Origin: Granulicella cerasi | Lineage (GTDB): Bacteria; Acidobacteriota; Terriglobia; Terriglobales; Acidobacteriaceae | Length of the DNA: 64,000 bases | NCBI RefSeq assembly: GCF_025685575.1 | Contig: NZ_JAGSYD010000001.1 | Coordinates: forward strand, 127,852-191,851 | Direction of reading: 5' to 3' | In this document: in pieces, positions 8,901 through 23,379 of the stretch | How positions within the stretch are numbered: position 1 is the first letter of the stretch | How the letters are laid out: each line of letters starts with the position of its first letter | Program-made: the position numbers and the translations under genes | The notes under the pieces: model-generated | What the model was told of the DNA's origin: nothing | Databases searched by the model: none | The model's input: only the letters and a program-made list of their open reading frames with translations

Positions 8901-9422
8901 GTCGGAGCCTTCGACGCCCGGCATGTACGCGAACATAAACGTCGAGAGTGTGCGCCCACCCTGGATCGAGAGCGGCATGTCCGTCACGGTTTCGTTTTCG
9001 AGCGTGACTTCCATCTTCGCGTCTTCGGTCTGCAGCAGCGGGGCCTGCGTCGTTACCTGCACGACCTCAGTCTGCGCGCCGACCAGCATCTTCGCGTCAA
9101 TCTCCGCCACCTGAGAGACCGAAAGCATGATGCCAGTGCGGTCATACGGGCGGAAGCCCTCGTGCGTGAAGTGGACGATGTAATGGCCGATGGGCAGGTT
9201 GAAGATGCGATAGAAACCACTCGAGTCCGTGTTGGTCGTCGTCTTCACGCCAGTGTCCGTGTTCTCGACGATGACCTGCACATTGGGCACCGTCGCGCCC
9301 GACGCGTCCTTTACGATGCCGGTGACCGATGCCTGGTCGCGCTGTGCGCGTGCCGCCAGGCTGGCGCTGAGAAGAACCGCGCAGCATAGCCAGCGACCCA
9401 GCGATTGATTGCGAAACGTCAT
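5919..9422 (-). CDS. TonB-dependent receptor, Oar-like, with carboxypeptidase-regulatory domain
   Basis: Large outer-membrane receptor (1167 residues) of the Oar-like group abundant in Acidobacteriota, presumed to import oligosaccharides with TonB energy. A signal peptide (LCCAVLLSASLAARAQ) is followed by a carboxypeptidase-regulatory-like beta-sandwich (about residues 30-110, with VTGIVKDASGATVPNVQV), a plug region, and a barrel ending in the terminal aromatic residue (VGARISF). ATG at 9422 is chosen because GGAGG lies 7 nt upstream; the open frame continues to 9740 but would run through the operator and into the divergent LacI gene. It faces the LacI gene across a 178-nt region holding a promoter and palindrome. 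Substrate is unknown; the neighbouring GH16 enzyme suggests a glucan. Confidence 0.88.
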   Translation of the reverse strand: MTFRNQSLGRWLCCAVLLSASLAARAQRDQASVTGIVKDASGATVPNVQVIVENTDTGVKTTTNTDSSGFYRIFNLPIGHYIVHFTHEGFRPYDRTGIMLSVSQVAEIDAKMLVGAQTEVVQVTTQAPLLQTEDAKMEVTLENETVTDMPLSIQGGRTLSTFMFAYMPGVEGSDYASHVNGSPAMTKEVMIDGTSAVSQLGGYLSESQPPMEAINQFQVDTAGIRATDGRTGGGVFKYEMKSGTNDIHGAVFGFLRNSVFDANDWFNKYTYGSSYPRPSDNMSQWGLGVGGPLIKDKLFWYGAFERYMFSNFSRGGLGSVVPNAAFLNGDLSALLNKTVTLGTDSAGNTIYQGAIFDPTTGNVFVNNQIPTTRFSNVSKNIIQLYQQYYQPIANPTPGAAGNNAMPSQTLPWEHISMVSGKIDYYLSKKDHFGGSYIYNSSPRILADQGGIWSYSTPNGGPMANSYDHFVHAPSARIAWFHTVNDHLLNTARFTFNRFYNPSKAISGAGNWDSKLGLGTYGSGNFPKITFGGSSYLSTYNMSSLGSQFNDFYAANTFIYNDDLSWVIGRNTLTMGVEFRAQQFNSHADSGVLSVDFDAAQTGAPNASYATSVGHSFASFLLGATNSAGVSQPNQLYGRRKSFSAYVSDDLKLTSKLTLNFDLRWDWNAPYKEKNGHWSSFNPTAANSVTGVPGALQFLSNGDQSWTNRQVWTNFAPHVGAAYQITPKTVLRGSFSIFYTPLNLNSWGAVPYSFDPGYVPSSQIQPSGQRLSKWQNWDTPYSNYATFTNAVKNPAYTQWGMVQIDPRMLTPGNTQQFMAGVQRDLGGKWVGSIDYIGNHSYHLQTSVLSGNQPSPSAYAALATRGTQWNWVSDAASAAAAGVPYPYQGFAGSAYMAITPNPLVATSYGPLFVVGSPVGNANYQSMQILVKRTAGNGLSMMASYVLSKAHGDTDSNFQELWWTGSVQNIYDRNRERNTVASFDQTHIVKGYISYILPFGRGRQFLGGSNRFVDSLVNNWMFNGDFHYASGTPMQVFSSNYYPGFNNVYANIVPGCNMVRGNKGIGGQYLNTSCFQNPNAAVGQLGNGSNFYDNARNIGLATEDLGIIKGINITADGRVKLQLRGDFFNIFNRRGLGAVDASMTSVTFGKVIGEGGPGPRTGQVGARISF

Positions 9423-9480
9423 GATGTTGCCTCCGAAATGAAACAGCCGGCGGAAGGTTCTCGACCTCGAGCGGCATTCG

Positions 9481-9511
9481 CAGAATCGGTTCTGTAAATG
9501 AACCGATTCTG
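9481..9511. promoter_or_regulatory. LacI-type operator: perfect 12-bp inverted repeat
   Basis: CAGAATCGGTTC (9481-9492) and GAACCGATTCTG (9500-9511) are exact reverse complements around a 7-nt centre. Each arm has a central CG flanked by A/T, as is common in LacI-family sites. The site begins about 6 bp downstream of the predicted start of the receptor transcript and lies 90 nt before the LacI gene. Confidence 0.75.
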
Positions 9512-9523
9512 TGAGCGGGGAAC

Positions 9524-9553
9524 ACAGTATTTCCGCGGCTTCAGAATTGTCAA
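9524..9553 (-). promoter_or_regulatory. Sigma70-type promoter for Oar receptor
   Basis: On the minus strand a perfect -35 box TTGACA (9553-9548) is followed after 18 nt by TACTGT (9529-9524). Transcription would start near 9517, immediately upstream of the palindrome at 9481-9511, so a bound regulator would block elongation or open-complex formation. Called by eye. Confidence 0.5.
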
Positions 9554-9600
9554 GAAGCATCTTTTGCACGGTGTCGCACTCGTGATAGAAAAAGGAACAC

Positions 9601-10656
9601 ATGAAGAGCCGCAGTACTTCCGGCCGCATCACCCTTCGCGATCTGGCGACGCATCTCGGGCTTTCAAAAACCACCGTCTCCGTCGTGATGAGCGGCTCAA
9701 AGGCCGCGGAGGCGATCCCCGAAAAGACGCGCCGACGCATCGAACGCGCCGCTGAGAAACTCGGCTATCGCGCTCACTACATGGCGCGTTCGCTGCGGAA
9801 GAGCGAGTCGATGTCGGTCGGCATCATCGTGCCGGAGTTCTCGGACGGCTACTTCACGCTGCTCATGGCGGGCATTGAAGAGTTCCTCATCAGCGCTGGC
9901 TACTTCTACTTCACCGTGTCGCATTACTGGAAGCCGGACCTGCAACAGCAATACCCCGCGATGCTCGAAGAGCGTGGCGTGGACGGCCTGTTGATGGTGA
10001 ATACCGATCCGCCGCAGAGCCATCTGCCGATGGTGTCGATCTCAGGCCACCACAAGCGCGGCGCGCCTACCACCGTGATGCTCGATCATGAGCACGCAGC
10101 GCATCTGCTCATCGAACACCTGCACGGGCTCGGCCATCGGCGCATCGCGTTCGTGCACGGTCAATCGTGGTCACAGGACACGCAACTGCGCCGCAAAGCC
10201 TTCGTCACAGCAATGCAGCAATTTGGTCTGAAGATCATTCCGGAGTTGCAGGTCACGCTCGATGCGACGACCTGGACGCCTGATCTGGGCTATGCACCCG
10301 CCACCGAGTTGCTGAAGAAGACGCGCGACTTCACGGCCCTCGTCTGCTTCAACGACACCGCGGCAATGGGTGCGATTCGCGCCGCACGCGACGCGGGTCT
10401 CCGCGTGCCCGAGGACATCTCGGTCACCGGCTTCGATAACATCGCACACGCCAGCTTCTTTTCACCGAGCCTCACCACCGTGCAGCAGCCGCTGCGCGAG
10501 ATGGGAAAGTCTGCGGCGCAGGCGCTCATCGAGCACATCCGCCACCCACAGCAGACGCAGCCCGCGAAACTCGTGCATCAACCCTTGCTGGTTGCGCGGG
10601 AGTCCACAGGCCATGCGCCGCTCACCGCGACGACGGCAAAGAGATCTGCGAAGTAA
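9601..10656 (+). CDS. LacI-family transcriptional regulator
   Basis: Sugar-responsive DNA-binding protein of 351 residues. The N-terminal LacI helix-turn-helix is seen in ITLRDLATHLGLSKTTVSVVM (about residues 10-30), with the hinge region RAHYMARSLRKSES. The periplasmic-binding-protein-like effector domain starts at VGIIVPEFSDGYF and contains the typical late segment VPEDISVTGFDN. ATG at 9601 has AGGA 4 nt upstream. It is divergent from the Oar receptor and almost certainly binds the palindrome between them, probably regulating the receptor and GH16 genes. Its stop codon abuts that of the convergent hydrolase gene with no spacer. Confidence 0.9.
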   Translation: MKSRSTSGRITLRDLATHLGLSKTTVSVVMSGSKAAEAIPEKTRRRIERAAEKLGYRAHYMARSLRKSESMSVGIIVPEFSDGYFTLLMAGIEEFLISAGYFYFTVSHYWKPDLQQQYPAMLEERGVDGLLMVNTDPPQSHLPMVSISGHHKRGAPTTVMLDHEHAAHLLIEHLHGLGHRRIAFVHGQSWSQDTQLRRKAFVTAMQQFGLKIIPELQVTLDATTWTPDLGYAPATELLKKTRDFTALVCFNDTAAMGAIRAARDAGLRVPEDISVTGFDNIAHASFFSPSLTTVQQPLREMGKSAAQALIEHIRHPQQTQPAKLVHQPLLVARESTGHAPLTATTAKRSAK

Positions 10657-11748
10657 CTACGGTTTCGGAGCGAGCTCTCGCGAAGAGCACTCTCCGCCAA
10701 ACACCGCAGCCAGGCCACACGGCGAGTTGAACATCTTGTCGCCGTCATGCTCCACGCCCGGCACGAACCAGAGCTGCTGCGAAGCGCCCTCCTGCTTCAA
10801 CTCCGGATGACGGCCTTCGAGATACGTGAAGTATGCTTTGCCGCGGAAGAAACGATACGGCCCTTCCATCTCGCCCGAGCACGACTTGTCCAGCGCGGGA
10901 TGGTCCGGGTCGGTGTCCTTCGTGCCGAGAAGATAGACCACGTCTCGCCGCACATAATGCGTCTCGATCGCGTCCCAGTCAGCCGCCGCATCGACGTAGG
11001 GAGGCGCCTTCTCTGTGCCGTACTTCCAGAGGTTGTAGTGGCCCATGCAGCTCTTCGAGGGCGCGCCGAAGGTGAACTCTTCCTTCGCGTTCAGCGCGGG
11101 GCGCTGTGGCGAAAAGTAGAGATACGACGACGGGTTGGCGATGACGTAGCGCACGTGGATCCCCGCGCGCATCAACAAGTCTCCCGCGGTGCTCACCACG
11201 GCATAGCGCTGCACCACCTGCGCTCCGCCGGAGTGTCCGCCGATGATGACCGTCTTCAGGTTCGGGAAGATCGTCTTGTTGCGCAGATAAGCAAGGATCG
11301 CGTCGACGCAATCGAACGAGCTGATCGCGCCGTTCATCGCATCTTCGCCGCCCATCCACGCCTCCGGCGCCCAGTGCAGCGTGTCCTGCGACAGGTGCCA
11401 GTGGTCCACGTCCTGCTGACCGAGAAACTGCGGCGTGATGAGCAACGTGGTCTTGCCCGCATCGCCCGCAGCCTTGATCGCCGCCAGGCCGCTCGCGTTG
11501 TAGACATCCGCGTTCCGCAGCTTGCCGTGGAAGAAGATCAGCACACGCGTCACTTCCGGCAGCGGTTTCGACCAGTCGCGCGAAACATACAACGGCAGCT
11601 TGCCTTTGCCTCCGCGAGGAGAGCTCACCTGCATCTGGTGATCGGCCACGGCCTTCACCGGCGCAGCAGAACTCGTCGTGTCGTCGGCCTTCGCCACAAC
11701 GCCTGCACTCACCAGCAACAACACTAACGCTACGCGCACAAACTTCAT
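10657..11748 (-). CDS. Secreted alpha/beta-hydrolase
   Basis: Extracytoplasmic serine hydrolase of about 363 residues. The signal peptide MKFVRVALVLLLVSAGVVAKA is followed by an alpha/beta-hydrolase core with oxyanion-region sequence VLIFFHGKLRNADVYN and nucleophile elbow GGHSGGA (Ser within GHSGG). A plausible His is in VPGVEHDGDKM near the C-terminus. ATG at 11748 is preferred because AGGAG lies 10 nt before it; the ATG at 11766 overlaps that ribosome site. It is the last gene of a tight leftward unit with the NHL/Ig protein, Oar receptor and MFS importer, which suggests that it releases or processes the transported compound. Substrate unknown; it does not match a specific esterase class that I recognise. 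Confidence 0.72.
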   Translation of the reverse strand: MKFVRVALVLLLVSAGVVAKADDTTSSAAPVKAVADHQMQVSSPRGGKGKLPLYVSRDWSKPLPEVTRVLIFFHGKLRNADVYNASGLAAIKAAGDAGKTTLLITPQFLGQQDVDHWHLSQDTLHWAPEAWMGGEDAMNGAISSFDCVDAILAYLRNKTIFPNLKTVIIGGHSGGAQVVQRYAVVSTAGDLLMRAGIHVRYVIANPSSYLYFSPQRPALNAKEEFTFGAPSKSCMGHYNLWKYGTEKAPPYVDAAADWDAIETHYVRRDVVYLLGTKDTDPDHPALDKSCSGEMEGPYRFFRGKAYFTYLEGRHPELKQEGASQQLWFVPGVEHDGDKMFNSPCGLAAVFGGECSSRELAPKP

Positions 11749-11773
11749 CAAAGCCAGGCTCCTCAATGCGATC

Positions 11774-14700
11774 TTACGGAATCGTCAACGTAAAGTTGAT
11801 CGTCTGCAGTGTCGTCGTACCCGAGTACACGTTCACGCTGAAGTTATAGGTACCAGAGCCCTGCTGCAGGGTCGTGGGGTCTTGCCCTGAGCAGCCTGTG
11901 AGCGCGCCCGCGCCCACGATGCCAAGCAACAGCATCGCCAGCATCGGCAGCGCTGCACGACGACGACGCAGACCGAAGATCAGCAGCGCCAACGCAGGCA
12001 GTGAAGCCAGCTCCAGCGCACGTCTCGACGAGGTCAGCGGCCTGCGATCGACGCTCGCATACTTCGCACCTGAGTTCGCCACAAGCATCTGCACCTGCAC
12101 CGTGGAGCTGTCGCCAGCAAGCTTCACGCTTGCCGGGGAGAACGAGCATTGCAGCTTCGACGGCAGCCCGTTGCACGCGAAGGTGAGCGTGTCCATGCGA
12201 CCACCCGTGACGATATTCAACTGCGTCTGCGCCTGCTGATAGTTGGCCGAGGGGAACGCCAACGCGGTGCTCGCAGGCGTGACGCTGAAGCCTGCAGCGA
12301 CGGTCACGTTGCTGCACGTGCTCGTCACGCTGGCATAGTTGGTCGTCGCCGAAGTGAAGACCGCGGTGATGCAGTTGGTGCCGGAGGCCAGGCCCGTGAA
12401 GGTCGACGTGGCGATACCGGAAGAGTTCACCGCCACCGCCGGGCCGAGGCTCGTGGTGCCGGAGTAGAAGACGACCGATCCCGTCGGAGTGCCCACCGAC
12501 GCGGTCAACGTGGCGACAGCCGTGTAGCTCGTCGTGGGGTAGCCCGTCGTCGGTGACACGGTGAGCGCGATCGTCGGCGTCACCTGCGTCACGACGGTGA
12601 CGTTCGCACATGCACTCGTTACGCTTGCGAAGTTCGTGCTGCCCGCATACTTCGCGGTGATGCAGTTCGTGCCTGCGGGCAGGTTCGTGAATGTGCCCGT
12701 GGCCTTGCCGGTGCTGTCGAGCGTGCCGGTCGCAAGCTGCGTTGATCCCAACAGGAAGGTGACAGTGCCCGAGGGCGTTCCCGCCGTCGAGGACACGGTC
12801 ACGGTCGCGGTGTAGGTGCTCGTAGCAAAGCCCGTCGTGGGCGTCACGCTCAGCGAGGTGGTCGGCGTGGCCTGCGTCACCGTGAAGGTCGCGGCAGTGG
12901 TCGTGACTACCGTCGCGGTCGTCGATCCACTCGGTGTGTAGTCCGCCGTGATGGAGTAGCTGCCCACCGCGGGCGTGTAGGTGTACGACGCCGAAGCGTT
13001 CGCGTCGGACGTAGCCGTCGTCAGCTTCACGCCTCCTGCGTAGAACGTCACCGTGCCGCCTGTGTTGTTCGGGCCGTACACAAGCGCCTTCAGCGTTACG
13101 CTGTTGCCGTACACGACCGAGGTCGGCGCGGCCGTCACAACGATGGCCGGGGTGGCCGTCGCGGCGGTCAGCGTGAAGTACGGCGAGCCGTTCGTCACCG
13201 TCGCCGTGAAGGAAACAGTGTCGGTCGGCACGCCCGTCGATACCTGCGAGAAGGCCGCACTCAACGCGCAGGAGTTGCCGCTCGCCAGCGCGCCGCTGCA
13301 ACCGTTCGTAGTCGCAGGCGAAACCGTGAAGTCGCTCGTGTTTGTCACGGTGTAGCTTGTCGTGCTCACCGGCGCCGAGCCGATGCTCGTGAGCTCGAGC
13401 GTCGTCGTAGCGGGGCTGGTGTTGAATTTGTAGTAGCCCGACGTGCGCGCGGACTTCACGACACCCGTTGCGCCGCTGTCTGCAAGGTATACATTGCCCG
13501 TGCTGTCGAGCGCGATGCCGCGAACGGTGGTGCCTGTGTAGAGCGTGAAGCTCTGCGAAGCTGCAGTCGTCTCTGTCGCGGTGGTGTTCGCCGTCGAGTA
13601 GAGATTGTTCGCCGCGTCCACTGCAATCGCCGTAGCTGTCAAAGTGGCGCGCGTACTTTGCACGCCCGCCGTGGTGAGCTGCTGCACCGCACTGCCGCTC
13701 GTGGCGTAGATCGTACCGTCAGCACCCACCGCTACACCGGTCGGCGTGCTCAAGCCTGTGAAGCCGACGGTGCGCGCAACGTTTGAACCGGGAGCGAAGG
13801 AAGCGATGCGATTGTTGCCGGAGTCCGCAACGAGCAAAGTGCCATCAGCCGCAATCGCAAGCTGACGCGGGCTGCTCACCGTTGCGGACAGGGTGAACTT
13901 TGTGCCAACGGCCGGAATCTCGGTGATCGTGTTTGCGCCTGCGTCTGCAATGAAGACATTGCCCGCACCATCCGCCGCGATGCCCTGCGGATTATTGAAG
14001 CCCGTCGCAAGCGTCGTCACCGTAGAGCCCACAGCGCGCAGCGCAGACTTCGTCGTCGCATCGGTGAAGTACACCGCGCCGGCGGCATCCGTCGCCACCG
14101 CGTTCACGCTGTAGCCTGAGCCGATCGTCGTCTGCGTGCCGGGATCCACCGCGAGCGCCGCGCCGGTGCCCACTCCGCTGATGACCAGCGAACCGAGCGT
14201 ACCGGCCGAAGCATTCACGCGTACCGCGCCCTGGCGTAGCGCTGCAGCTGTCGGCTTGAAGCTCACATTCTCCACGCACGTCGAGCCTGCAACTACCGCA
14301 AGCGTCGAAGAGCAGGTGCTACCCGTTGCCTCTGCAAAGTCGCTCACCGGAAACGACGAGGCCAGCAACGTGTTCACGCCGAGGAAGGTGAACGCATACG
14401 GCTGCGCAGCGCTTGTGCTGCCCACTCCGGTCGCCGGGAACGTAGTGTTGTAGGCGAACTTGCGCACGACGTAGCTGATCGCATCGCCGAAGTACAGGTT
14501 GCCGGAAGCGTCTGCTACTACGGGACCGCGAGGGCTGGACAGCTTCGCCTGCGTGGCAGGGCAACCGTCGTAGTAGGCGTCCGTCATCACAGGGCCGGTC
14601 GTGCCGCCGCTGCAAGTTGCGTTCGCAGCCGCGGTCGCAATCGCACCGTTGCCGCCGAGGATCGCGGCGATACCGGTCTCCGCGTACACCTCGTAGAGAT

Positions 14701-16090
14701 AGCTGGTGCCGTAGTCGAAGAAGAAGACGTTGCCCGCAGTATCGCCGCCGATGCTCTGCGCAGAGCTCAACACCAGCGCGCTCGGAGCTACGCCATTCTG
14801 CGCACCGGCGAGACCCGTTCCCTGGCCTGCGAAGCTGTAGGTATAGCCCGCCTGCAGCGTGCCGCTCACGGCCGTGGGATTGGCTACGCCGCCATAGATC
14901 ACCTTGATGCGCTGGTTCGTCGCGTCGGTGTAAAAGACGTTGCTGTTCGCGTCGAGATACACGCTCCACACCGGACCCGTACCGACTGCATTGCCGAGCG
15001 CTGCGGTATCGCTGCCTGCCGTCGTCAGGCAGGCATTCGCGCTCGACACCGAACCCGTCTTGTTTGTTGCCGCAGAAACGCATCCTGCACCAGCGATCGT
15101 GTACACATAGCCGACCACGGGTGAGGCCGTACCTTGCGCAACGAGAATCGCCTTTGCAGCGCTTCCACCGTTGTAGAGCACGCGCACGGCGTTGTTCAGG
15201 TTGTCGGCAATGAACACATCATCGCTCGAGGAGATCGCAACACCCGTTGGCGAACGCAGCAGCGCGATCGCCTGCGCAGCCGTTGTGCTCGAATTCGCTG
15301 CAGTGGTGTACCCCGGTTGCGCATCACGATAGCCATTCGCAAAACCTGCGATGGTGTACATCGCACCGTTCGCGGGCGCGGTCACAGTCGGGTTCTCCGT
15401 GGTGATGAGCTTCGCCGCTGACGTCGTCACCGCGCAGTTCACGCAGAAGACGCGGATGCGGCCGTTCGAGTAATCCGCGAGGAAGAGGTTGCCATCGGCA
15501 TCGACCTTCACATCGCGCGCGGCCACAGGCGCTGACGCACCCGGGCAACCATCGCCGAGCGTATCCAACGCCGTGGGCTGGCCACTCGCAGCGTAGTTCG
15601 CACACGGCAAGCCGCTTACGTTCAGCACGGTAAACGTGGGATACGCAGTGGACGTCCCTACGCCCACACCTGCAAGCGTGTACACATTGCCCGCCACAGG
15701 CGTCGGCGAAGGCGCACTCGCGAGCGGCGTCACGTAGCCGCTGTTCGCGGCCTTGATCGCCGCCGCAAGCTGCGTGCCGCCGTTGTACACAACGCGCACC
15801 TGCTTGTTGCCGTAGTCCGCAAAGTAGATGTTGCCGTACTTATCGACCGCAGCACCTTGCGCAGCGTTCAGCTTCGCCTGCGTCGCAGGGCAGCCATCAC
15901 CGAGCGCGGAGCCGTCGGTGCTGGCTATCGCGCCGGTACACACCGCCGTGGTGGTAGACGTGCCAAAACCCGCAGCCGCGCTCGTGAAAGGAACGGGCAC
16001 GGCGCTGGGCTGCGTTTGCGCATGAGTCGCGAAGCCGCATGCAAGGAGTGCGATCGAGAGAAGCGATTTGGCCTGGCTGAAGTTCGCCAT
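11774..16090 (-). CDS. Giant secreted NHL-repeat / Ig-like-repeat protein
   Basis: Cell-surface or secreted protein of 1438 residues. A signal peptide (SLLSIALLACGFATHAQ) precedes many NHL-type beta-propeller units (recurring YGNIYFADYGNKQVRV, DGNLFLADYSNGRIRV, AGNVFIADAGANTI) over roughly residues 50-880, then at least three Ig-like domains of the TVTFYAGG/TGSVVFYSG type. Near the C-terminus are an Arg-rich hydrophobic segment (about residues 1355-1400) and GALTGCSGQ, followed by a final beta-rich tail. ATG at 16090 has AAGGA 8 nt upstream; two earlier in-frame ATGs overlap that site. It sits between the Oar receptor (54-nt gap) and the hydrolase (25-nt gap). Likely roles are adhesion, substrate binding or scaffolding; no catalytic motif was seen. 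Confidence 0.82.
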   Translation of the reverse strand: MANFSQAKSLLSIALLACGFATHAQTQPSAVPVPFTSAAAGFGTSTTTAVCTGAIASTDGSALGDGCPATQAKLNAAQGAAVDKYGNIYFADYGNKQVRVVYNGGTQLAAAIKAANSGYVTPLASAPSPTPVAGNVYTLAGVGVGTSTAYPTFTVLNVSGLPCANYAASGQPTALDTLGDGCPGASAPVAARDVKVDADGNLFLADYSNGRIRVFCVNCAVTTSAAKLITTENPTVTAPANGAMYTIAGFANGYRDAQPGYTTAANSSTTAAQAIALLRSPTGVAISSSDDVFIADNLNNAVRVLYNGGSAAKAILVAQGTASPVVGYVYTIAGAGCVSAATNKTGSVSSANACLTTAGSDTAALGNAVGTGPVWSVYLDANSNVFYTDATNQRIKVIYGGVANPTAVSGTLQAGYTYSFAGQGTGLAGAQNGVAPSALVLSSAQSIGGDTAGNVFFFDYGTSYLYEVYAETGIAAILGGNGAIATAAANATCSGGTTGPVMTDAYYDGCPATQAKLSSPRGPVVADASGNLYFGDAISYVVRKFAYNTTFPATGVGSTSAAQPYAFTFLGVNTLLASSFPVSDFAEATGSTCSSTLAVVAGSTCVENVSFKPTAAALRQGAVRVNASAGTLGSLVISGVGTGAALAVDPGTQTTIGSGYSVNAVATDAAGAVYFTDATTKSALRAVGSTVTTLATGFNNPQGIAADGAGNVFIADAGANTITEIPAVGTKFTLSATVSSPRQLAIAADGTLLVADSGNNRIASFAPGSNVARTVGFTGLSTPTGVAVGADGTIYATSGSAVQQLTTAGVQSTRATLTATAIAVDAANNLYSTANTTATETTAASQSFTLYTGTTVRGIALDSTGNVYLADSGATGVVKSARTSGYYKFNTSPATTTLELTSIGSAPVSTTSYTVTNTSDFTVSPATTNGCSGALASGNSCALSAAFSQVSTGVPTDTVSFTATVTNGSPYFTLTAATATPAIVVTAAPTSVVYGNSVTLKALVYGPNNTGGTVTFYAGGVKLTTATSDANASASYTYTPAVGSYSITADYTPSGSTTATVVTTTAATFTVTQATPTTSLSVTPTTGFATSTYTATVTVSSTAGTPSGTVTFLLGSTQLATGTLDSTGKATGTFTNLPAGTNCITAKYAGSTNFASVTSACANVTVVTQVTPTIALTVSPTTGYPTTSYTAVATLTASVGTPTGSVVFYSGTTSLGPAVAVNSSGIATSTFTGLASGTNCITAVFTSATTNYASVTSTCSNVTVAAGFSVTPASTALAFPSANYQQAQTQLNIVTGGRMDTLTFACNGLPSKLQCSFSPASVKLAGDSSTVQVQMLVANSGAKYASVDRRPLTSSRRALELASLPALALLIFGLRRRRAALPMLAMLLLGIVGAGALTGCSGQDPTTLQQGSGTYNFSVNVYSGTTTLQTINFTLTIP

Positions 16091-16144
16091 GAGAGTCATC
16101 CTTAAAAACAAAAACCGTGAAACGCTGTGGTCGAAATTGCCGAC

Positions 16145-19100
16145 TTAGAACTGGACCTTCGCGACAAGCTGCAGCAGGCGCGGGTTGCCGACGGTGCTCA
16201 GGATCGCTCCGAAGTTCGATCCGCTCACGTTGCCTGCGGGGTTCGCGAAGTTCGGGTGATTGAAGACGTTGAACGCCTGCAGGCGGAGATCCAGCGCCGT
16301 GCCCGCGAAGAGCCGCGTCCGCTTGCCCAGCGAGAGATCGACGTTCGCGTTACTCGGTCCGCGCAGTACGTTGCGACTCACCGTGCCGTAGCTCGTGCCT
16401 GCGGTCGTGAAGGCCGCGGGAACGTTGGTCAGTGTGCCGTTGTTGAAGTACGCGGTCAGGCGATCTTGTGTGCGGCCATAGCGGCGAGCGGTGTTGGCGT
16501 TCGCACCAGCCACCCAGCTAGCGCGGCTCGTGTCCGTGCCGTACTGCGAAGCACCCGAGCTGTCGGTGATATCGATCGGCTTGCCGGTCTGATACACACC
16601 TGTTCCCGAAAGGTCATAGCCGCGGAAGATGCCGCGCGCCCAGCCATGAATCGGCAGCGTGGGAATGCTGTACGACCAGCGTGCCGAGATGCGGTCCGTG
16701 CGATCGAAGTCCGAAGGCCCGTATGCCTGGCGCGGGTTCGTCTGGTCGCCATCGAAGTTGTTGAAGACCGAACCATCGGCCGTACCCGAGCTCGTGTCCA
16801 TCGACTTGCCGAAGGTGTTCGTCACCATGAAGTTGGTGCGGCCCTTCTTGTAGTTCAGTGTCGTCTGCAACGAGTTGTAGTTCGACGTCATGCGCGTCTG
16901 CAGATACAGGAAGCCCGGAATGCTGAAGCCCTGATACGGCGCGCGCTGCTGCGGATCGCCGGTATTCACCGTCGTGCCGTTGATGGGATTCGAAGCGCTC
17001 GCAAGCTGTGCCTGGTTTAGCTCCGTCTCCACCGGCAGATGACGGCCGAGCGTGCCGACATAGCCCACCTCGAGCATCATCGCCGGCGTGATCTGCGTCT
17101 GGATGTTCACACCGAACTGCTGGTAGTACGGCGTCTTGATCTGCGGATCAATGTTGTTGATCGACAGCGGCGCGGTCGCCGTGCCCGACGACGAGTACGC
17201 GGCTACCTGGGGCAGAATCGGGAACTGCGAACGCTGCGGCAGCGTGGGGAACGGATTGTCGAAGCTCGAGTTGATGTTGATGGGCGTCTGCGGCGTCTTG
17301 CCGCTCTGGCCCGACGAGTTCTTCCCGTCGGCGCGCACGTAGTTCGGCACCGACAACGACTCCAGCAAGCCAAGCTGGTTCGACAGACGGTCATAGAACA
17401 AGCCATAGCCCGCACGCAGCACCATCTGATCGTTCAAGCGATAGATGGCACCGATGCGCGGCCCGAGGTTCAACTTGCCCACCGTGTCGGTCAGCGTATT
17501 GGAGACCTTCGCAATGCCCGGCACCGCATTCACCGCATTGCCTTCCTGCACGAAGCCCATCGAGGTCACACCACCCGCGGGCGGAGCCACGTAGCGGCGT
17601 GGATCGAACGCACCGTTGCGACCGAAGATGTCCACCGGCAAACCGATGTACTCCCAGCGCAGGCCGATGTTGATGCTCAGACGCGAGGTCGGCTTGTACG
17701 CATCCTGCGCGAAGAGCGCGATGTCGCGGATGCGGTCATAACGCTGCACCACGCCCGACGCCACCGAGTAGGTGTAGTTGTCCGAGTAGCCCGTGCCGTT
17801 ACCGCCCGCGGCCACCGACTGGCCATTGCGGCCGAGCATCAGGTTCTGCATCGAGATCACGTCGATGGAACCGTTCATACGATTATTCGAGAAGTAGTTG
17901 TCCTGATAGCGACGCATCTCGAAGCCGAAGTTCATCGCGTGCTTGCCCTTCAACCAGTTCACGTTGTCGAAGTACTGCCATGTGTTCTCGGTGTCCGCCT
18001 GGTCGGCGTTCACGCTGTAGCCGAACTCATACGAGTTCGAAAGCTCGATGAGCGGAATGTTCGGAAAGTCACCGGCATTGAAACGCGTCATGCCAATGGC
18101 GCTCAGCGGAATCTGATTTTCAAAGCCCGTGTGCCCCAGCAGGCGCGACATACCCATGCGGAACTCGTTCACGACGTTCGGCGAGAAGACATGCGTCTCG
18201 CTCACCGAGTAGAGGCGGCTCTTGAAGAGCTGATTCAAGCCGAAGCCCGGCACCGAACGCGTCGAAGGCAGCGACTGAAACTGCGGCTGCTCGGCGATCA
18301 CCGTGTGAAACGCCGCCGTGTCCTTATCGCGCCAGCGATACGTCATGCTGCCGGAGTACTCGTCTTCATTGAAGATCGACGGCACCGACACGGCATAGTT
18401 CACATTCGTGTTCGTTGCCGATCCGTTCGGCGAAGGCACAACATAGTTGCCGTTCGCAAACTTCAACTGCAGCAGCTTCAACGCTGCAGGGTTGATGTTC
18501 GAGCCATCGGCAAGGATCGACGGCCCGCTATGCGAGGTCGCGCCCAGCGAGTTGCCGAAGAGGCCAAGCGAGGTGACCGAGCGGTTCGTCGGCAGGTTCG
18601 GAATCGCAATCGTCGTCGTGCCCGCATAGCCATTCACCTGTCGCGTGCCCTGATACGCGAAGAAGCCGAAAAGCTTGTCCTTGATAAACGGTCCGCCGAT
18701 CGCGCCGCCGAACTGGTTCTGGTTCAGCTTCGGCTTGCGCTGGCCGAGGTTGTTGAAGAACCAGTTGTTCGCGTTGAACATCGTGTTGCGGAAGTACTCA
18801 TACACCTGGCCGTGAATCGCGTTGCCGCCCGTGCGCGTGATGAGGAAGATGTTCGATCCGCCCGAGCGCCCCGTCGCCGCTTCAAACAGCGCAGTCTGCA
18901 CCTTGAACTCCTGAATCGCGGCCGGAGGAGGAATGATCGTGCCATTCGACGCAAACGCGTTATTGCCCGCCGAGTTCACGTGTACGTTCACCGCGTCGAT
19001 GCCGTCGATATAGATGGAGTTCGAGCTGGTGCGCGCGCCGTTGGCGTTGATGTTCTGCGTACCGCGGCCCAGCGCGGTCGCATCGTTCAACTCACCCACC

Positions 19101-19588
19101 ACGCCCGGCGACAGACCCAGCAACTGCGTGAAGTTGTTGGTCGCCAGCGGCAGCTCTTCCACGGCCTGACCGTCGATCACGCGGCCCTGCGTTACCGACT
19201 CCGTCTGCAGCATCGGCTCGGCCGAGCTGACATCCACCGTCGTCGCCACGCTCGAAAGCTGCAGCTTCGCATCTACGGCGATGTGTTCGGTCACGTTCAG
19301 CGTCGTCACCTCGGTCGAGGTGGCGAAGCCTTCGAGCGCAAACTTCAGCTCATAGTCCGCAGGACGCAGCGCCGGAAAGCTGTACTCACCCGCAGCGTTC
19401 GTCGTGGCCGTGCGCGACTCACCCGTGGAGGTGTCGCGCGCCGTGACGAGCACCTTCGTCAGGCGTCCGCCGCCTGCATCCGTCACTACGCCCGAGATCG
19501 TGCCGGTGGTCTGCGCGGTCGCAATCGCCGCGCCGCCCAGCAGAAGGAGAAACACAATCCAAATTCCGTGAAACAGCTTCATCCGCAT
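16145..19588 (-). CDS. TonB-dependent receptor, Oar-like (second copy)
   Basis: Outer-membrane receptor of 1147 residues with the same architecture as the receptor at 5919-9422. It has a signal peptide (IWIVFLLLLGGAAIATAQ), a carboxypeptidase-regulatory domain (ISGVVTDAGGGRLTKVLV, about residues 30-110), a plug with the DGIDAVNVHVNSAGNNAFAS region, and a barrel ending LQLVAKVQF with a terminal Phe. GAGGA lies 7 nt before ATG 19588. It is 12 nt downstream of the MFS importer stop and 54 nt upstream of the NHL/Ig gene, so all are probably one transcript. The two receptors in this window differ clearly in sequence and probably take different substrates. TonB/ExbBD partners are not in the window. 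Confidence 0.88.
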   Translation of the reverse strand: MRMKLFHGIWIVFLLLLGGAAIATAQTTGTISGVVTDAGGGRLTKVLVTARDTSTGESRTATTNAAGEYSFPALRPADYELKFALEGFATSTEVTTLNVTEHIAVDAKLQLSSVATTVDVSSAEPMLQTESVTQGRVIDGQAVEELPLATNNFTQLLGLSPGVVGELNDATALGRGTQNINANGARTSSNSIYIDGIDAVNVHVNSAGNNAFASNGTIIPPPAAIQEFKVQTALFEAATGRSGGSNIFLITRTGGNAIHGQVYEYFRNTMFNANNWFFNNLGQRKPKLNQNQFGGAIGGPFIKDKLFGFFAYQGTRQVNGYAGTTTIAIPNLPTNRSVTSLGLFGNSLGATSHSGPSILADGSNINPAALKLLQLKFANGNYVVPSPNGSATNTNVNYAVSVPSIFNEDEYSGSMTYRWRDKDTAAFHTVIAEQPQFQSLPSTRSVPGFGLNQLFKSRLYSVSETHVFSPNVVNEFRMGMSRLLGHTGFENQIPLSAIGMTRFNAGDFPNIPLIELSNSYEFGYSVNADQADTENTWQYFDNVNWLKGKHAMNFGFEMRRYQDNYFSNNRMNGSIDVISMQNLMLGRNGQSVAAGGNGTGYSDNYTYSVASGVVQRYDRIRDIALFAQDAYKPTSRLSINIGLRWEYIGLPVDIFGRNGAFDPRRYVAPPAGGVTSMGFVQEGNAVNAVPGIAKVSNTLTDTVGKLNLGPRIGAIYRLNDQMVLRAGYGLFYDRLSNQLGLLESLSVPNYVRADGKNSSGQSGKTPQTPININSSFDNPFPTLPQRSQFPILPQVAAYSSSGTATAPLSINNIDPQIKTPYYQQFGVNIQTQITPAMMLEVGYVGTLGRHLPVETELNQAQLASASNPINGTTVNTGDPQQRAPYQGFSIPGFLYLQTRMTSNYNSLQTTLNYKKGRTNFMVTNTFGKSMDTSSGTADGSVFNNFDGDQTNPRQAYGPSDFDRTDRISARWSYSIPTLPIHGWARGIFRGYDLSGTGVYQTGKPIDITDSSGASQYGTDTSRASWVAGANANTARRYGRTQDRLTAYFNNGTLTNVPAAFTTAGTSYGTVSRNVLRGPSNANVDLSLGKRTRLFAGTALDLRLQAFNVFNHPNFANPAGNVSGSNFGAILSTVGNPRLLQLVAKVQF

Positions 19589-19600
19589 GATGCTTTCCTC

Positions 19601-20869
19601 TTACTTACCCAGCTCAACCGAGCGCCGTTCGCGCCCCACAAACACCATCAGAATGGCCAGCGCAAAGACCGCCGCCGCCGTCATCGCCATCGAGGTCGCG
19701 TAGCTGCGGCCCTTCGTGGCAAACGCCGCCTCAAACACCGTGACCGCGCCCGAAAGCGCCACACCGATCTGGTTGCCCAGCCCGGGCAACGTGCCGCGCA
19801 CGCTGTCCGGGCTCAGCTCCGCCACATGCGCCGGCACCACTCCCCACGCGCCCTGCACACAGAACTGCATCAGCACCGCGCCCAGCACCAGCAGCGGCAG
19901 CGTGTGCGCATGCGACCACAGCGGCACCATCACGATGCCGCCGACCAGCGCGCCAATCATCGCGCGCTTGCGGCCCACGCGGTCCGAAATCCAACCGATC
20001 GACAGCCCGCCGAGAATCGCGCCCACCATCGAAATCGCCGAGAGCGCCGCCTTTTGCTTGCCCACGATGCCCCAGTCCTTCTCGAGGAAGGTCGGGTACA
20101 TGTCCTGCGTGCCGTGCGAGCTCATGTGCATCGCCATCATGAAGAGCGTGAAGTAGACCAGCAGCTTCCAGTGCGAAGCCACCGCACGGCCCAGATCGCC
20201 GAAGCTCCCCGAGCGGTTCTGCTGCCACGTCTTCGACTCCTTCACCCGCAGCGCCACAAAGAGCGCCGAGGCCAGCGCCGGGAGGCTGCCCACAAAAAAC
20301 AGTGGACGCCAGCCATGCGTCTGCGGCAGGAAGAAGTACGCCGCCGCCGCGAGCAGGAAGCCGATGGCATAGCCCTGCTGCAGCAGGCCGCTCAGCACGC
20401 CGCGATAGCGCGTCGGCACCTTCTCCATCGCCAGCGAGACGCCGATGCCCCACTGCCCGCCCATCACCACACCGAAGAGCGCGCGGATGACGATGAACTG
20501 CGTAAACGTATGCGCGAAGCCGGTCATCATCTCCACCACCGAGAAGAGGCAGAGGTTGATGACCAGCGGCAGCTTGCGGCCATAGCGGTCCGAGATGCCG
20601 CCGAAGAGGAACGCGCCAATCGGACGGAGCAGCAGCGTGGCCGACGAGGCCATGATCATGTGCTTCACGTCCTGGTGGAACTCGCGGCCGATCGCCGTGA
20701 GCGAAAGCACCACTAAAAAGAAGTCGAAGGCGTCGAGCGTCCAGCCAGAGAGGCCGGCTAGAAAGGCTCCGAACCACGGCTCCGGCTTCACAGCGGTCGT
20801 GGCATGAACGTCAGTCGGCAGCGTCGAGGGCGACACAAGAGTAGGTTCGGAAGAAGCGGTCACAGGCAC
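19601..20869 (-). CDS. MFS importer, sugar/organic-acid SHS (NanT/lactate)-like
   Basis: Inner-membrane proton-coupled importer of 422 residues with about 12 transmembrane helices. GLSGWTLDAFDFFLVVLSL in helix 1 resembles the NanT (sialate) and Jen1-like lactate transporters. The MFS loop motifs GGISDRYGRK (loop 2-3) and IGWISDRVGRKR (loop 8-9) are both intact. The start is GTG at 20869 with GGA about 10 nt upstream. It is the first gene of the leftward unit with the Oar receptor, NHL/Ig protein and alpha/beta-hydrolase. The product imported is therefore probably a small acid or sugar acid liberated outside the inner membrane; this is inference from family and context. Confidence 0.8.
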   Translation of the reverse strand: MPVTASSEPTLVSPSTLPTDVHATTAVKPEPWFGAFLAGLSGWTLDAFDFFLVVLSLTAIGREFHQDVKHMIMASSATLLLRPIGAFLFGGISDRYGRKLPLVINLCLFSVVEMMTGFAHTFTQFIVIRALFGVVMGGQWGIGVSLAMEKVPTRYRGVLSGLLQQGYAIGFLLAAAAYFFLPQTHGWRPLFFVGSLPALASALFVALRVKESKTWQQNRSGSFGDLGRAVASHWKLLVYFTLFMMAMHMSSHGTQDMYPTFLEKDWGIVGKQKAALSAISMVGAILGGLSIGWISDRVGRKRAMIGALVGGIVMVPLWSHAHTLPLLVLGAVLMQFCVQGAWGVVPAHVAELSPDSVRGTLPGLGNQIGVALSGAVTVFEAAFATKGRSYATSMAMTAAAVFALAILMVFVGRERRSVELGK

Positions 20870-21073
20870 AGGCGTCGATCCTTTTCGTTCTTGCCTGCGG
20901 CCGATAAACGGAGCAGCAAGGAAACTGGCGAATCCTAGGAGCGACGCGAAACAACTGTCTCAAAAGAGTTCCGAAGAAAAAATAAATGCTGATTCTAGGT
21001 GACTTATGACCATTCGGCCAGTCCTCTCACCCACTTCGCGGCTGTTTCGAGTCGCCGCGAACAGACGCCCAGC

Positions 21074-21161
21074 ATCTCGCCTCACCACGAACAGGCGCCC
21101 AAATCTCGCCTCACCACGAACGGGTGCCAAAATCTCGCCACACCACGGACGGGTGCCCCAC
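21074..21161. repeat. Three tandem copies of a 29-30-nt unit
   Basis: Units start at 21074, 21103 and 21132, each beginning ATCTCGCC and containing CACCACG and a GGYGCC element. A fourth truncated start (ATCTCG) occurs at 21162, where the 42-bp element takes over. There are no spacers between units, so it is not a CRISPR array. Confidence 0.75.
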
Positions 21162-21191
21162 ATCTCGATTTTTGAGATGTGGGTTTGCAGG
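21150..21191 (-). repeat. REP-like 42-bp palindromic element, copy 1
   Basis: Contains a perfect 10-bp hairpin, CCCACATCTC (21157-21166) and GAGATGTGGG (21174-21183), with a 7-nt loop. The first 16 bp (CGGGTGCCCCACATCT) recur in inverted orientation at 21242-21257. A diverged whole copy lies at 36384-36426 in the opposite orientation. The pattern resembles dispersed REP-type elements. Confidence 0.65.
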
Positions 21192-21390: not shown

Positions 21391-23379
21391 CTACTTCAGC
21401 CGACCCGCCAGCGCCGCGAACCCCGGCTCGCCGCGCAGAGCGTCGAGCGTCGGGTCTACCCGCAGGTACACCATCGAGGTCGAGTGGTCGTCGGCAGCTC
21501 GCGAAAGCTCCGCCATCGCCTCCGCCTTGCGACCGAGGCCGATCAGCACCAGCGCGCGGCTGATGGGTGGCACATACGAGCCCTCCCCGCGCGTGCGAAG
21601 GTCAGCTAACACCTTCTCCGCAGAGGACTTATCGCCCGAAGCCGCCAACGCGTCTCCCAGCAGGCCCTCGACGTAGGGGTCAGGATGAGCGTCCACCGCG
21701 AGTGCCTTGCGGAACTCCGCCACAGCCAGCGTTGGGCTGCCGCCGGTCAACTCCACCATGCCCAGCCGTGTGTGCGCGCGGACGAAGTTGGGGTCCATCT
21801 CCAGCACCTTGCCGAGCTCCTGCCGGGCAGCGGCGTTGTCGCGCGAAAGGTACTCGATCCAACCCACGTTCGTGCCGATGATCAACGAAAGCGGGTCGAG
21901 CTTCTGCGCCAGTCGCACCTCATAGAGCGCCTGCGGAAACCGCCCCATCGCCGCCAGGTCCAGCGCGTACCAGTGGTGCGCCGTCGCGTAGTTCGGGTTC
22001 AGCTCCATTGATTTGGCGAACTCGCGCTCTGCCCCGGTCAGGTTCCAGTCTGTGAAGAAGAGGATCATGCCGAGCGACGCGTGCGGCTCGGCAAGTTTGG
22101 GGTCAAGCTGGATCGCCGACAGCGCCGCCGACCGGGCGTCCGCGTTGGCCTGCGACCCCGGTTCCACCGAAAAACTCGCTAAAAGCGCGTAAGAGTCCGC
22201 CAAACCGCTGTAAGCCGGGGCAAAGTTCGGATCGGCGTCGATCGCCTGGCGAAAGAGTCCGGTCGCGCGGTGCAGGCCGTCGGGGGTGCGGAGGTTCCAG
22301 AAGTAGCGCCCCCGCTGATAGAGCTGCCACGCCGGGTTGTTCGCCTGCGCGCGCGCCGTGTCCGGCGTGGGCTCGGCCTTCGGAGGAGCCGTGGTCCCGA
22401 GATGATGCAGCTCATGCGCCACCGCCGCGCCAGCCAGCGACTCGGTCTCCGCCAGCGAAGCGCCGCGGAAGCTGTCCTGCCACAACGTCAACCCGTCGCG
22501 TGTGCGGATCAACCGCAGCCGCAACCTATATTGAGGGCCATCCGCCGAAACCGTTCCGGCAAGCACAGCATCCACCGACTGCTCGCGCCCGGCGGCGACC
22601 GCATCGGGCGCTCCCGGCACGGAGTACCGGAGCACCGCCGAGGTCGGTCGCACGATCAGCTGCCCTTCCAACCGCTGCACCAACGCGTCCGTCACGCCCA
22701 GGCGAGCGATCTCATCCGGCCCACGGCCGTCGCTCGACACCGGCAGCACCGCCAGCGATCGCAGCGGCGTACGCGGCGCCAGGAGCCACCAGGCCCCGCC
22801 CGCAAGCCCTGCTAAAAGAAACACATAGGTGATCAGCAGAGGCCAGCGCAGCTCTGAGCGCGCGGGAACGACCGCAGCGGGCGGAACCGTTGGCGCTGCC
22901 GTCTGTTCAGCCGCAAAGGGGTCATGGGCCACCACTTGCGCGACAACCGGCTCTTCTACGGGAGTCGGAGGGGTCTGCGGTCGGCGCGGCGCGCGCTCTT
23001 CCTCGCTCACCTCGGCGACGAAGCGATATCCCTGCCGCGCGACCGTCTGAATCAGCTTCCGCTCCTGCGGGGCCTCGCCGAGGGCGCGACGAAGCGTCGA
23101 CACCGCCACCGTCAGGTTCGACTCTTCGACGAACGAGCCCTCCCACACCTGCGCCAGCAGCTCTTCCTTCGTCCAAAGCTCGCCGGGCCGGCTGACCAGG
23201 CAAACCAGCAGATCAAACGCGCGCCCCGGCAGCGTGACCTGCTGCCCTTCGCGGAGCAGCAGCCGATTCGCCGGGTCCAGCACGAAGCCTGCAAAGACGA
23301 AGACACGCCGAGCGCCTGCGTCCGGGGCCGGTTGTGGCCCCCGCGCGTCGCTTCGGTTCGTGTCAGAAATCTCGATCAT
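21391..23379 (-). CDS. CadC-like winged-helix membrane protein with TPR domain
   Basis: Membrane-anchored putative transcription factor of 662 residues. The OmpR/CadC-type winged helix covers about residues 28-122 (LPGRAFDLLVCLVSRPGELWTKEELL, ending IQTVARQGYRFVAEV). A Pro-rich linker leads to one transmembrane helix at about 180-201, then a TolB-like segment (LAVLPVSSDGRG) and a series of TPR repeats from about 360 to the end (for example ANADARSAALSAIQLDPKLAEPHASLGM). This layout is common in Acidobacteriota. The TPR part is expected to be extracytoplasmic and sense a protein or envelope signal. It is divergent from a MacB-like permease gene, which may be a target. Its start at 23379 leaves 170 nt between the genes. 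Confidence 0.85.
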   Translation of the reverse strand: MIEISDTNRSDARGPQPAPDAGARRVFVFAGFVLDPANRLLLREGQQVTLPGRAFDLLVCLVSRPGELWTKEELLAQVWEGSFVEESNLTVAVSTLRRALGEAPQERKLIQTVARQGYRFVAEVSEEERAPRRPQTPPTPVEEPVVAQVVAHDPFAAEQTAAPTVPPAAVVPARSELRWPLLITYVFLLAGLAGGAWWLLAPRTPLRSLAVLPVSSDGRGPDEIARLGVTDALVQRLEGQLIVRPTSAVLRYSVPGAPDAVAAGREQSVDAVLAGTVSADGPQYRLRLRLIRTRDGLTLWQDSFRGASLAETESLAGAAVAHELHHLGTTAPPKAEPTPDTARAQANNPAWQLYQRGRYFWNLRTPDGLHRATGLFRQAIDADPNFAPAYSGLADSYALLASFSVEPGSQANADARSAALSAIQLDPKLAEPHASLGMILFFTDWNLTGAEREFAKSMELNPNYATAHHWYALDLAAMGRFPQALYEVRLAQKLDPLSLIIGTNVGWIEYLSRDNAAARQELGKVLEMDPNFVRAHTRLGMVELTGGSPTLAVAEFRKALAVDAHPDPYVEGLLGDALAASGDKSSAEKVLADLRTRGEGSYVPPISRALVLIGLGRKAEAMAELSRAADDHSTSMVYLRVDPTLDALRGEPGFAALAGRLK

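Follow-up and report, generated by a model that had tools for sequence, protein, structure and literature searches.

In the polysaccharide utilisation loci of Bacteroidota, the TonB-dependent receptor SusC works with the surface protein SusD, which holds the ligand for it. The locus described here lies in a 64,000-nt stretch of DNA (the window) that spans positions 127852-191851 of contig C1 in a 4.08-Mb genome with named relatives in Granulicella (Acidobacteriaceae). It resembles the SusC/SusD systems in that a carboxypeptidase-regulatory-type TonB receptor stands beside a candidate large surface protein, an exported hydrolase, an importer, and a regulator. It differs in the partner of the receptor, which here is a giant NHL/Ig protein with a lipo-invert tail, and in the proteins that accompany it, since Pfam searches of the four genes and three neighbours returned no SusD model and no glycoside hydrolase or lyase. 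An earlier note on this DNA had also seen no glycosidase among the four genes, and Pfam bears this out. A polysaccharide locus was rejected as an interpretation because none of the four genes encodes a glycan enzyme.

The solved structures nearest to the hydrolase of this locus are those of PahZ1 (PDB entries 6ve6 and 9o7u) and LpqC (3d0k), with which it shares the fold and a likely Ser-Asp-His triad. In contrast to these enzymes, it is longer and sits in a putative receptor-importer operon, and it is 18 to 24% identical to them. PMC4456602 describes PahZ1 as cleaving the beta-amide bonds of poly-aspartate and states that PahZ1 and the PHB depolymerases are thought to have a common ancestor.

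The tail of the giant protein is reminiscent of MYXO-CTERM of Myxococcota, which PMC11980579 describes as having a C-terminal invariant Cys, a membrane helix, and an Arg-rich stretch, and as occurring dozens of times per genome. In MYXO-CTERM, however, the helix comes after the Cys motif and the Arg-rich stretch closes the protein (PMC11980579), an order that the present tails do not show; they run from helix to Arg cluster, hydrophobic stretch, Cys, and beta hairpin. The tail itself is already catalogued as NCBIfam NF058595 (“lipo-invert putative C-terminal anchoring domain”), and what is added here is its pairing with receptors and its reading as a split Ig domain. Searches of the open-licence PMC literature found no paper on a lipo-invert tail or internal lipobox, on Acidobacterial TonB-dependent receptors together with NHL repeats, or on polysaccharide utilization with TonB in Granulicella.

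Gene layout and proposed function

The four leftward genes described in the earlier note, with gaps of 12, 54, and 25 nt between the MFS, receptor, NHL/Ig, and hydrolase genes, were recovered as such (Table 1). All are open frames with plausible starts, each start is preceded within 15 nt by a purine-rich stretch, and GC3 ranges from 0.79 to 0.87 across the four. A sigma-70-like promoter was searched for ahead of the MFS gene and was not found.

Table 1. Positions of the genes and of the tail elements in the window
Feature	Position	Strand	Details
CadC-like regulator gene	21391..23379	−	Trans_reg_C and TPR models; upstream of MFS gene
29-bp tandem repeat	21058-21167		3.7 copies; between CadC-like and MFS genes
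MFS importer gene	20869-19601	−	GTG start; 422 aa; Sugar_tr/MFS_1
Antisense open frame	17039-20716	+	1225 aa; Arg/His-rich; opposite receptor and MFS genes
Oar-like TonB-dependent receptor gene	19588-16145	−	ATG start; 1147 aa
Giant NHL/Ig protein gene	16090-11774	−	ATG start; 1438 aa
Lipo-invert tail	11774..12241	−	Ig-like domain split by helix, basic cluster, hydrophobic stretch, and lipobox
Tail Ig-like strands	about 12241-12068	−	From alignment and model
Tail helix	12004-11969	−	Followed by Arg cluster and hydrophobic stretch
Tail lipobox LTGC	Cys codon 11893-11891	−	Followed by last beta hairpin up to stop codon
Alpha/beta-hydrolase gene	11748-10657	−	ATG start; 363 aa
LacI-type regulator gene	9601-10656	+	Convergent with hydrolase gene; stop codons abut (0 nt)
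Second Oar-like receptor gene	5919-9422	−	Divergent from LacI-type gene

The receptor matches the barrel model PF25183 (OMP_b-brl_4) with 587.6 bits and CarboxypepD_reg with 57 bits, and the Plug model with 22.4 bits, under the cut-off of 23.9. The barrel and the N-terminal CarboxypepD_reg domain, both over cut-off, define it as an Oar-like TonB-dependent receptor. In the giant protein, NHL propeller repeats and Big_3_5 Ig-like domains score over the Pfam cut-off, and a signal peptide was recognised by eye.

For the importer and two homologues, the top NCBIfam model is that of the SHS-type sialate:H+ symporter, TIGR00891, but the scores of 305 to 332 bits (305.3 for the importer itself) compare with a cut-off of 552.9, and the substrate cannot be transferred from this model. 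The earlier naming of the importer as “SHS-like” holds in the sense that this is the nearest model, but the match lies far under the cut-off.

The CadC-like protein, which was absent from the earlier note, combines a winged-helix DNA-binding domain and TPR repeats (Pfam) with a putative membrane helix seen by eye. It is likely the regulator of the unit and, given the 521-nt gap to the MFS gene, is probably made from its own transcript. The tandem repeat of Table 1 lies in this gap. The antisense frame opposite the receptor and MFS genes is most likely a by-product of high GC.

The LacI-type gene was considered as the regulator of the unit and rejected, because it is convergent with the hydrolase gene and no homologue was reported in three of the related loci (L010, L011, and L031). 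A link to the second Oar-like receptor is more likely, and these two genes (window 5919-10656) probably constitute a separate uptake system.

Our main reading, to which we assign a probability of about 0.5, is that of a regulated uptake operon. The ligand of the TonB receptor would be a molecule to which an organic or amino acid is bound through an ester or amide. Beside the receptor, the giant NHL/Ig protein, lipid-anchored via its lipo-invert tail, would assist in catching or holding this ligand, the part that SusD plays for SusC. The exported hydrolase would free the acid, either at the cell surface or within the periplasm. Import of the freed acid into the cytoplasm would fall to the MFS symporter, whose transport is presumed to run inward. 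The CadC-like membrane protein would sense the ligand and switch the genes on. The capture, release, and import unit put forward in the earlier note is likely, in line with the co-inherited set of genes, the lack of a glycosidase, and the ester/amide-type fold of the hydrolase; the proposal had to be amended in that the unit is modular in make-up and in that the CadC-like regulator had been missed.

The hydrolase

Against Pfam, the hydrolase gave a weak match to Abhydrolase_6 (20.7 bits, with a cut-off of 26.3). A profile of 14 homologues searched against the PDB returned, at E < 0.001, only PahZ1 of Sphingomonas KT-1 (2.3e-16), PahZ1 of Pedobacter KP-2 (7.6e-13), and LpqC (9.2e-10). The AlphaFold model of the protein (pLDDT 88.8) gave Foldseek E values of 1.6e-15 to 1.8e-13 to the same three entries. 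Alignment of the model with VIA-align gave Z scores of 26.6, 25.3, and 25.1 to these three, over 247 residues, and 15.8 to the next entry. The hydrolase belongs to the PahZ1/LpqC group by fold, about ten Z units above that entry. Moreover, Ser173 (in the motif GHSGG), Asp278, and His334 are invariant in the 14 homologues and likely form the catalytic triad, with the role of Asp278 presumed.

The suggestion of an ester, acylated, or acid-containing substrate made in the earlier note is in line with this fold, which puts the protein in an ester- and amide-cleaving group. The hydrolase thus probably cleaves ester or amide bonds in molecules that contain an acid, at a level of identity that does not fix the substrate. 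As to the substrate class, the best reading is an organic or amino acid bound through an ester or amide. Candidates are C4 acids in either linkage (aspartyl or malyl oligomers) and aromatic or amino-acid conjugates.

The lipo-invert tail and its pairing with receptors

The split-Ig, lipobox-containing C-terminus of the giant protein was likewise absent from the earlier note. Its helix and basic cluster, followed by a Cys close to the end of the protein, make it a tail of the lipo-invert type. All 12 relatives that were picked for NHL homology and have a complete C-terminus show a split-Ig tail like that of the window; the NHL-like frames with no visible tail (L060, L064, L065, L068, L073, and L074) all end at the edge of the retrieved stretch and say nothing on the tail. 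A profile of the 13 tails gave 29 matches in the same genome as the window, 28 of them C-terminal tails, a count that leaves out L116, where the match is not C-terminal.

Among 37 aligned tails, 34 to 61 residues long, the Cys is the only invariant column (37/37), to be read with the fact that the 24 later tails were retrieved by a Cys-containing profile, which favours Cys invariance. Gly precedes the Cys in 36 of the 37, and Leu, Met, or Ile occupies position −3 in 29; a strict fit to the lipobox consensus was obtained for 20. NF058595 matches all 37 tails at E <= 0.01, and the window tail at E 7.9e-8 with 32.6 bits, under the curated cut-off of 37. Such tails were found in at least 51 of 297 genomes of the phylum, 31 of those 51 being within the family. 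The own genome contains one LspA match.

In the structural model of the window tail (pTM 0.60), strands within residues 3-56 and 130-154 mostly have block-mean pLDDT values of 83 to 98, and the helices have lower ones. Structural matches span residues 1 to 155, ranges that give the first and last residue only, with 74 to 88 residues aligned and a middling best Z of 9.3. This aligned length is as expected if the two halves of the tail form one Ig domain.

TonB receptors of a single barrel family number about 51 in this genome, a count obtained by merging 69 match rows by hand. Eight of the 28 lipo-invert genes lie within 500 nt of one of these receptors on the same strand, four after it and four before it. 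Random placement in 5000 trials gave a mean of 0.19 pairs and a maximum of 3, and no trial reached 8; for this test, the sizes of all contigs except C1 and C4 were estimates, and the receptor genes were lengthened by 760 nt at their 5′ ends. NHL-type paralogues follow receptors in Granulicella rosea (L084, L085, and L086) and at two further places of the own genome (L080 and L081), but not in L082. These five pairs have alginate lyase, GH3, GH79-like, or GH92 genes in their vicinity, so that receptor and giant together resemble a glycan-locus module that has been reused, here in a unit without glycan enzymes.

A large lipoprotein-like protein was also observed near receptor/NHL pairs (L080 2397-4631, L084 2837-5092, L081 13261-18162, and L086 16782-19253). 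The one in L080 begins with a lipobox and is without a Pfam or NCBIfam match. The homologues are 30 to 49% identical (blastp), and none was found in the window.

It is possible that the lipo-invert giant is a SusD-like partner of the receptor. The fuller proposal is more tentative, and we regard it as somewhat unlikely when taken as a whole: the giant would be the Acidobacterial equivalent of SusD, with a split domain as its anchor. The internal lipobox would be processed by Lgt and LspA, and the hairpin of the lipidated tail would complete the last Ig domain non-covalently. Receptors would gain in this way a lipid-held capture partner, which would serve a non-glycan substrate in the present unit and belong to glycan loci in other places.

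Conservation in relatives and alternative readings

Close homologues of the receptor (E <= 1e-200) were found in at least 8 of 396 genomes of the family, the own genome included. Genes in the relatives were called with a simple GC3-based ORF picker, with rough starts, and the NHL query in the locus searches began at 16096, the gene start being at 16090. One relative (G364) has all four genes in the order of the window, Granulicella sp. S156 (G106) has MFS-receptor-hydrolase, and G. rosea (G034) has DctA-receptor-NHL-hydrolase. In G040 the MFS gene, an S9-type hydrolase gene, and then the receptor gene nearly touch, and G125 has MFS-receptor-S9-type hydrolase; in both genomes the S9-type hydrolase is exported and occupies the slot of the PahZ1-like one. 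In G353 the receptor gene lies about 1 kb on from the MFS gene and is followed by an aminotransferase gene, with a RidA-like gene (identified by eye) and an amine oxidase gene convergent. In G039, where neither MFS nor CadC is present, the neighbours of the receptor are, by Pfam, amidohydrolases and an M14 carboxypeptidase.

Across the eight receptor loci, a CadC-like wHTH-TPR homologue is present in seven (five times upstream, and twice on the far side of the hydrolase gene in convergent orientation, the gene of G040 running off the end of the retrieved stretch), MFS in six, a PahZ1/LpqC-like hydrolase in four, an S9-type hydrolase in two, and NHL/Ig in three. The steadier core consists of the CadC-like regulator, the MFS importer, and the receptor, accompanied by a hydrolase slot with varying occupants. 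The co-occurrence of the genes in G364, G106, and G034 exceeds chance. The synteny check proposed in the earlier note gave a positive outcome in one relative (G364), where hydrolase and NHL/Ig genes co-occur with receptor and importer. The four-gene unit is kept in that genome, and in three-gene form in G106 and G034, but it is not obligate.

In G106, no NHL remnant was detected by tblastn in the receptor-hydrolase gap of about 290 nt. In G. rosea, no MFS orthologue was found elsewhere in the genome, the best match being only 41% identical, and the carrier at the place of the importer is DctA (609.3 bits, with a cut-off of 513). The NHL/Ig orthologues of G034 and G364 are 45 to 48% identical. 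At the G364 locus, an 857-aa protein with a lipobox-like start and without a Pfam match was also observed, encoded divergently from the MFS gene (L031 1407-3980, minus strand).

The neighbours of the importer in other loci bear on the substrate. Matches to the MFS protein at E <= 1e-110 occur in at least 44 of 396 family genomes. The loci of 26 of these 44 genomes were read, namely 6 receptor loci and 20 others, the latter in a span of at most four genes to either side of the MFS gene. A different receptor, 24 to 27% identical, was nearby in 3 of the 20. A fumarylacetoacetase gene adjoins the MFS gene in 6 of them (L168, L169, L170, L171, L174, and L176; MFS identity of 56 to 58%), accompanied by confirmed HPPD and HgmA genes in L169. 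With such neighbours, aromatic or amino acids may be what this branch of MFS proteins transports. The locus could accordingly be one for aromatic or amino-acid conjugates, from which the hydrolase would free an aromatic or amino acid for import by the MFS protein. The third-best NCBIfam model for the importer, that of aromatic acid:H+ symport, is in line with this, as are the neighbours of the receptor in G353 (aminotransferase and amine oxidase) and G039 (amidohydrolases and M14 carboxypeptidase), which point to amino acids or peptides. All six fumarylacetoacetase loci come from a single genus, however, and in none of them did the four genes flanking the MFS gene on each side include a close homologue of the receptor; DctA in G. 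rosea also speaks against conjugates, and we consider them rather unlikely as the substrate.

DctA beside the receptor suggests a more specific form of the operon reading, in which polymers of C4 acids (beta-linked aspartate or malate oligomers) would be cut by the PahZ1-like hydrolase and the aspartate or malate imported. The nearest solved enzymes, being poly-aspartate beta-amide hydrolases (PahZ1; PMC4456602), favour this too. Nevertheless, DctA was found in one genome only, separated from the receptor gene by some 380 nt or more; LpqC, which is named a PHB depolymerase, matches the hydrolase equally well; and no NCBIfam dicarboxylate carrier model was reached at cut-off by the MFS protein. 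This form of the reading is unlikely. The clues to the substrate are in conflict, with DctA pointing to C4 acids in one genome and the wider MFS relatives pointing to tyrosine breakdown in one genus.

A further alternative is that the genes lie together but share no function: one system would consist of receptor, importer, and regulator, with the hydrolase and NHL/Ig genes as passengers. The absence of NHL from five of the eight receptor loci and of the PahZ1-like hydrolase from four would fit this, and both absences count against the operon, as does the position of the giant, which is first in half of its pairs with receptors and second in the other half. Searches of 249 genomes of the order and 398 of the family gave hydrolase homologues in 9 and 12, respectively. 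Ten further loci of such homologues (30 to 55% identity), several on short contigs, showed no receptor, MFS, NHL, or CadC match. In G071 and G193 a 44% identical homologue lies on the opposite strand between dapA- and dapB-like genes recognised by eye (L013 14395-15453 and L014 3974-5032). Against mere neighbourhood, the order is kept at receptor identities of 59 to 61% and hydrolase identities of 61 to 64%, another exported hydrolase fills the same slot in two genomes, and NHL-type genes recur directly after other receptors. We doubt that the two genes are passengers; for the operon speak the short gaps, the order kept in G364, and the S9-type hydrolase in the same slot of G040 and G125.

Uptake of a siderophore or cofactor, with the hydrolase as an esterase of the intracellular-release type on a ferric or other chelate, is highly improbable. 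In its favour, the siderophore hydrolases EstB and PfeE are among the weaker fold matches (Foldseek E of about 1e-8 to 1e-7). Against it, PahZ1 and LpqC match far better, the receptor is of the Oar-like PF25183 type, and no iron gene was noticed on reading the annotated neighbourhoods.

On the reading as a regulated uptake operon, the core of regulator, importer, and receptor with swappable hydrolases offers a handle on the ligand of one of the many receptors in this genome. The NCBIfam entry for the tail limits its novelty, and the split-Ig tail with an internal lipobox is a directly testable way of anchoring proteins. The SusD-like giant is the part most worth testing: if the proposal is true, the TonB receptors of this group would gain a surface partner that plays the part of SusD in Bacteroidota.
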